Below are positions 16,927 through 17,072 of a stretch of 64,000 bases of DNA, in pieces. The first letter of the stretch is position 1, and each line of letters opens with the position of its first letter. The position numbers were made by a program, and so were the translations under genes. Location: the IMG/VR virus record IMGVR_UViG_3300050821_016057, positions 1-64,000 of that record, one strand, 5' to 3'. This DNA is from a virus. Below the pieces are notes generated by a model. That model ran no database searches and was not told the DNA's origin. It saw only the letters and a list, made by a program, of their open reading frames with translations.

Positions 16927-17072
16927 AGGAGGCGCGCGCCCGTCGGCCCGGCAAAGGGGCGGCCGGGCGTCACTTGAGGGCAGGCAGCGGTGGTTGTGGC
17001 CCTTTGCCGGGCCACTGGGTGCGCCTCCTGGAAGGCCACCGTTGCCTGCCCACCCTTTGAAGGAGGCGCGCG
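16927..17072 (+). promoter_or_regulatory. Structured leader with duplicated Shine-Dalgarno and pseudoknot
   Basis: Segments A (GGAGGCGC, 16928-16935), B (16945-16958) and C (16978-16993) pair with A' (GCGCCTCC, 17021-17028), B' (17000-17013, perfect 14 bp) and C' (17036-17051, 16 bp with one G-U). C lies in the loop of B and C' lies outside, so C:C' forms a pseudoknot. The 12 bases 16927-16938 are repeated exactly at 17061-17072, which include the Shine-Dalgarno of the next gene. A' can therefore pair either with A or with that Shine-Dalgarno. Confidence 0.6.

Follow-up and report, generated by a model that had tools for sequence, protein, structure and literature searches.

A conserved pseudoknotted leader, and probable translational switch, of the tail assembly chaperone mRNA in a clade of uncultured phages

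Long-tailed phages need many tube subunits for each tail assembly chaperone. In the window (the whole 64,000-nt stretch analysed here, part of a 99,861-bp record from an uncultured virus), the chaperone leader at 16927–17072 contains two helices that interleave, and it repeats exactly the 12-mer that forms the chaperone Shine–Dalgarno (SD) sequence. What does such a leader do, and which of the two neighbouring genes does it serve? The comparisons described below indicate that it is probably a conserved, cis-acting RNA switch for translation of the chaperone mRNA.

Organization of the leader and its gene context

The positions of the genes and leader elements are collected in Table 1. Six of the 15 aligned homologues of the tube protein match phrog_365 ‘tail protein’. 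The chaperone protein itself gave no matches in Pfam and PHROG family searches. Its identification as a tail chaperone in the original prediction is nonetheless upheld by its location between the tube and tape measure genes and by retention of the slippery site and the extended reading frame: seven of eight chaperone homologues checked have a slippery run of the A/G-TTT-TTT type (L002 has ATTTCTTCT instead), and all eight have an open −1 extension of 95–102 aa. Further downstream, an 89-aa ORF (20027–20296) consists largely of a poly-serine tract (SSSDSSSSGSSSSSS...) and is flanked by the tape measure gene and a gene for a LysM/Phage_tail_X-like tail protein.

Table 1. Genes and leader elements in the window
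Feature	Position	Strand	Remarks
Tail tube protein gene	16482–16919	+	145 aa; precedes chaperone and tape measure
A, upstream SD copy AGGAGGCGC	16927–16935 (12-mer to 16938)	+	pairs with A', 13-nt pair run in the window
B1, local hairpin	16936–16970	+	loop ...GGCAAA...; present in L005 and L025, missing in L002
C, 5' strand of constant stem	16978–16995	+	pairs with C'
D, hairpin GTGGCCC-TTTGCC-GGGCCAC	16996–17015	+	between C and A'; conserved
A', anti-SD GCGCCTCCT	17021–17029	+	alternating partner of A and SD
C', 3' strand of constant stem	17034–17051	+	followed by conserved ACC (CCCACC)
Chaperone SD AGGAGGCGCGCG	17061–17072	+	pairs with A'; abuts the ATG at 17073
Tail assembly chaperone, zero-frame product	17073–17705	+	210 aa; ATG at 17073
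−1 frameshift site ATTTTTTTC	17659–17667	+	extended chaperone product ends at 17995

The strands of the window leader are arranged in the order A–B–C–B'–A'–C'–SD, and the C:C' helix crosses both A:A' and B:B'. The two copies of the 12-mer AGGAGGCGCGCG are exact and lie 134 nt apart at the two ends of the leader, the second being the SD, as the original prediction had it. The predicted C:C' pairing (16978–16993 with 17036–17051) is also verified: it covers 16 positions, 15 complementary and one G–U, and extends to 18 pairs (16995/17034) if further G–U pairs are counted. The A:A' pairing (16927–16935 with 17021–17029) is present, with a length of 9 bp in place of the 8 bp first given, and A' is also complementary to 17061–17069. 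As a sequence feature, B:B' is a perfect 14-bp match (16945–16958 with 17000–17013), and CCCTTTG does occur twice, at 17000 and 17053. On the + strand of the window, GCGCCTCC is found at A' and at 39523 only. When the window was scanned for other A' targets, GGAGGCGC was located at SD distance from a long ORF start only for the chaperone and possibly at 56181; a copy at 17168 falls within the chaperone gene. A search for a promoter in the leader found none.

The crossing of C:C' with B:B' had been proposed to create a pseudoknot, and a folding score that allows pseudoknots ranks the leader first in the window. The leader tile scores 100.9, the highest of 2554 window tiles on both strands, followed by its own reverse complement (90.7) and by the next unrelated tile (76.1); none of 60 dinucleotide shuffles reaches the pseudoknot of the window leader. 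The nested fold is unremarkable for GC-rich DNA (z = −1.4), which is expected because nested folding cannot see a GC-rich pseudoknot.

Relatives and covariation of the pairings

Relatives were gathered through the tube protein and then through alignments of tube homologues, independently of the RNA, giving 80 viral loci (designated L002, L003 and so on). Four tube queries, run by blastn and tblastn against a set of 50,697 phage records, found no cultured relative, and two scans of bacterial genomes found no homologue. The element is confined to one well-supported clade of the tube tree (100/99), whose 30 rows comprise 21 full forms, four reduced forms (L052, L059, L066 and L072) and five without the element (L011, L012, L029, L034 and L036). 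In most close relatives the layout A–C–A'–C'–SD is the same and the letters are for the most part different: a GGAGGCGC-like A, C, an anti-SD A' and a C' ending in CCCACC, in many cases with a GGAGGCGC-like SD before the chaperone start. Reduced forms contain the C:C' hairpin; in L059 the anti-SD lies in the loop of this hairpin and pairs with the SD, and the upstream A is missing. Conservation beyond the A, A' and SD strands is limited to the base of C:C', and the hairpins are variable or missing. Outside tube-homologous contigs, scans with exact A and A' core patterns returned only chance coding matches that lack C:C'. No Rfam 15 family reaches its gathering threshold over the window, and sub-threshold hits to the leader are at chance level (E 0.17 or worse).

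The paired strands change together across these phages. For C:C', the summed score of cognate strands is 738, compared with 518 for non-cognate combinations (0 of 20,000 permutations). Five loci (L004, L008, L015, L035 and L049) do not rise above the non-cognate level in this unrestricted test; compensated C:C' pairs appear in the alignment for L008 despite that result. The pair run through the A' core and its flanks averages 11.4 nt for cognate A:A' versus 8.7 nt for non-cognate strands (17 loci), and that of A':SD is 10.4 nt versus 8.5 nt (cognate in 13 loci), each with 0 of 50,000 permutations. Both pairings predicted for A', which was thought to alternate between two SD copies, are thus cognate. 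Because A and SD are alike, part of the A':SD signal could derive from A:A', and a further test was therefore limited to flank positions where the two differ. At these positions 36 of 83 pair with A', against 29.5 expected (p ~0.06; 2808/50,000), so that selection specific to the SD is likely, rather than proven, on this test alone. The clearest cases favouring the SD are L009 (14 nt paired with the SD against 9 with A) and L028 (16 against 12).

A plain MAFFT alignment of four sequences (the window, L002, L005 and L025) allows individual changes to be followed. Pairing is observed in 97% of cells, compared with 83% in shuffled alignments and 44–49% in slid controls. Both sides have changed in 14 of 34 pairs, figures for pairing and change that none of 500 shuffles attains, with double changes in 9 of 18 C:C' pairs and 5 of 7 D pairs; every cell of the D hairpin is paired (100%). 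Between L008 and L010, which are 88% identical, two C:C' pairs differ by compensated double changes. The core itself is altered in all three strands in L027 (A, GGCGACC; A', GGTCGCC; SD, GGCGACA) and L030 (A, GTGGAGG; A', CCTCCAC; SD, GTGGAGG). The original prediction had staked the structure on compensatory changes in relatives, and such changes are found. A motif-free search ranks the combination C:C' plus A':SD first among pseudoknots in L002, L003, L005, L013, L014, L025, L028, L030 and L059, with 0 of 60 shuffles equally good in these nine loci. The characteristics of an H-type pseudoknot are present: two interleaved helices, a short link between them (0–5 nt from C:C' to A':SD in most members) and compensatory changes. 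The three pairings are preserved in divergent phages, and this comparison of sequences strongly supports the RNA structure of the leader.

The B strands do not behave in this way. In relatives, 70.7% of B:B' cells are paired and the covariation is no better than in shuffles, and the copy of CCCTTTG at 17053, proposed as an alternative partner of B, has no counterpart; the B:B' helix and the second CCCTTTG are particular to the window phage. A better reading assigns the B and B' strands to two local hairpins, B1 and D, the second of which uses the B' strand and was not listed in the original prediction. The B1 and D loops are complementary over 6 nt (GGCAAA:TTTGCC in both the window and L005; by eye, TGCAAA:TTTGCA in L025), and a kissing contact between them is possible, weakly supported by counting.

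The covariation also bears on the suggestion that the 12-bp repeats are target duplications flanking a 134-bp insertion. This suggestion would fit the exact direct repeats at both ends and the few clade members that do not have the segment (L011), but the repeats are complementary to an internal strand and change together with it from phage to phage, which refutes their reading as insertion marks. In addition, the element has a single vertical distribution in the tube tree and no second copy was seen in exact-pattern scans of viral contigs, leaving an insertion with almost no probability. A transposable element or MITE was considered separately and rejected, since all hits of the scans were homologous leaders or chance matches in coding sequence and the distribution follows the tube tree.

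The gene served by the element

The element is located directly after the tube gene in most close relatives. A rival reading is a structured 3' end of the tube mRNA, in which A:A' and C:C' protect or process an abundant message and the likeness to an SD is secondary. This main rival gains from loci where other genes follow the element: a gene on the opposite strand in L008, L010 and L026, and another tail gene in L004, L007 and L015. The element can therefore occupy the tube 3' end where no chaperone gene adjoins it. A, C, A' and C' are kept without a matching SD copy in L007 and L035, and the displaced chaperone of L026 has no matching SD while the A to C' part is kept. Several observations argue against such a role. 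In L028 a gene parts the tube from the element, which remains directly before the chaperone together with the SD. The chaperone SD is still GGAGGCGC in L008 and L010, where a gene intervenes between C' and the chaperone, and the displaced SD of L010 has 11 nt complementary to A'; L004 and L015 likewise keep GGAGGCGC as the chaperone SD. Finally, A':SD is cognate in 13 loci, and no terminator-like site (a GC hairpin followed by a U run) was found within 16800–17200. A tube 3'-end function is accordingly improbable, and the element most likely acts on initiation of the chaperone.

The tube–chaperone interval appears to be an insertion hot spot in the clade (L008, L010, L026 and L028; probably L012, L029, L034 and L036), with extra genes, apparently often on the reverse strand, flanking the RNA element on either side. 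About 505–620 nt past the tube stop, L036 has a chaperone SD GAGGCGC, with GCGCCTCC ~110 nt upstream and a separate GGGCTCG...CGAGCCC hairpin between the two, possibly a rearranged element.

We also observed a perfect palindrome, CCCAAACCCGGGTTTGGG, with 26 copies in the 99.9-kb record, 17 of which are in the window (4301, 8681, 10391, 13729, 20306, 22198, 26079, 32877, 33680, 35418, 41724, 45110, 48820, 52351, 55011, 60999 and 63377). Many copies are apparently intergenic and are followed by TAGGCT- or GCATAAG-like promoter motifs; the set looks like an operator system spread across the genome. Different palindromes occur within or close to the tube–chaperone region of relatives: L003 (6468–6485), L009 (2627–2654), L015 (6569–6586) and L002 (7600–7617 and 10004–10021, e.g. 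CCGAAACTCGAGTTTCGG), followed by promoter-like letters in L003, L015 and L002. In L003 and L009 the palindrome separates A from C within the leader, and a shorter transcript without A is therefore conceivable.

A proposed switch and its relation to known systems

The reading of the leader as a switch is well supported by these sequence patterns and may be pictured as follows. C:C' would be the constant hairpin, placing the anti-SD A' beside the 5' side of C'. With A' on the downstream SD, C:C' and A':SD would together make an H-type pseudoknot in which the chaperone start is closed; with A' on A, a decoy SD copy that follows the tube stop, the chaperone SD would be free and the start open. We infer that less chaperone is translated when the start is closed, and that the leader passes back and forth between the states in the cell. 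Estimated duplex energies in the window are close (−32.8 kcal/mol for A:A' and −29.2 kcal/mol for A':SD), and their order varies between phages. For the competing folds, nested estimates differ by no more than about 6 kcal/mol; these are rough values that ignore pseudoknot energies.

In the window phage A starts 7 nt past the tube stop codon, and a terminating ribosome, or one bound to A as an SD, could thus make A unavailable and tip the balance towards the closed state. Occupation of A by ribosomes would keep the chaperone scarce during tube synthesis. In 11 of 17 loci A begins no more than 17 nt past the tube stop, with a minimum of −1 nt; the distance is 21–34 nt in five others and 384 nt in L028. 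This variability means that occlusion of A by ribosomes cannot be the general or sole trigger, but because A is near the tube stop in many loci, a ribosome finishing the tube gene is a natural candidate. The stronger proposal of a translation-coupled stoichiometry sensor, in which tube-finishing ribosomes capture the decoy SD and the anti-SD so released shuts the chaperone start, is speculative and rather unlikely as a whole; if true, chaperone output would fall as tube output rises.

A could instead serve as the SD of a short ORF in the leader, with translation of this ORF opening or closing the structure. An ATG is positioned 5–10 nt past the GGAGG of A in L002, L003, L015, L026 and L028, but it is missing there in the window and most other members, and the peptide, frame and stop position read from the sequences are not conserved. 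We consider this very unlikely. A site for a phage or host protein or a ligand that stabilizes one fold, as in autoregulation by the chaperone or tube or in a riboswitch, is possible, if doubtful. The near-invariant A' core and the conserved (U)GGG...CCC(A)CC at the base of C:C' exceed what pairing needs, and the layout is bistable. SD sequestration by an alternative helix, a riboswitch hallmark, is seen in A':SD, for which the SD-specific signal alone is weaker. Against such a site, the loops and the B1 and D hairpins vary in length and are missing in some members, so that no conserved, aptamer-like ligand-binding core is seen across the relatives, and no Rfam riboswitch reaches threshold. 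A protein or ligand site of this kind is compatible with the switch, within which it could be the trigger.

The SAM-II and preQ1-II riboswitches are H-type pseudoknots that sequester an SD, and in both these and the phage leader the last pseudoknot strand is the SD of the regulated gene. The leader differs in the absence of an Rfam match and of a detected ligand-binding core, in its much longer first stem (16–20 bp) and in the upstream SD copy that competes for the anti-SD. Autoregulatory leader pseudoknots are also known from T4 gene 32 and rpsO/S15, where, as here, the pseudoknot is near the start of a gene whose product needs dosing; the phage leader has in addition a decoy SD after the stop of the previous gene, and its protein-binding role is putative. 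In the timP mRNA, mutually exclusive leader folds decide translation, the pseudoknot form is active and an sRNA switches between them (PMC11228461). The phage leader resembles timP in having alternative conformations, one with a pseudoknot, whereas its SD pseudoknot is predicted to be the closed form and no sRNA is known. A literature search found no paper on a leader of this type. The leader represents a new RNA family of a mechanistic kind that is already known.

Programmed −1 frameshifting of the lambda G/GT type doses the products of tail chaperone genes, and the window chaperone has a slippery site too. Frameshifting acts within the gene, during elongation, whereas the leader element is upstream and is predicted to act on initiation. 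Our analysis suggests that the leader is a previously undescribed way of setting the amount of chaperone, in a clade for which the search of 50,697 cultured-phage records gave no match. Given the covariation, the structure is sufficiently certain for direct probing. The anti-SD and the two SD copies, which vary in concert, constitute a compact three-strand switch that, if the proposed role is true, would be a second device for dosing the chaperone beside frameshifting within the gene.
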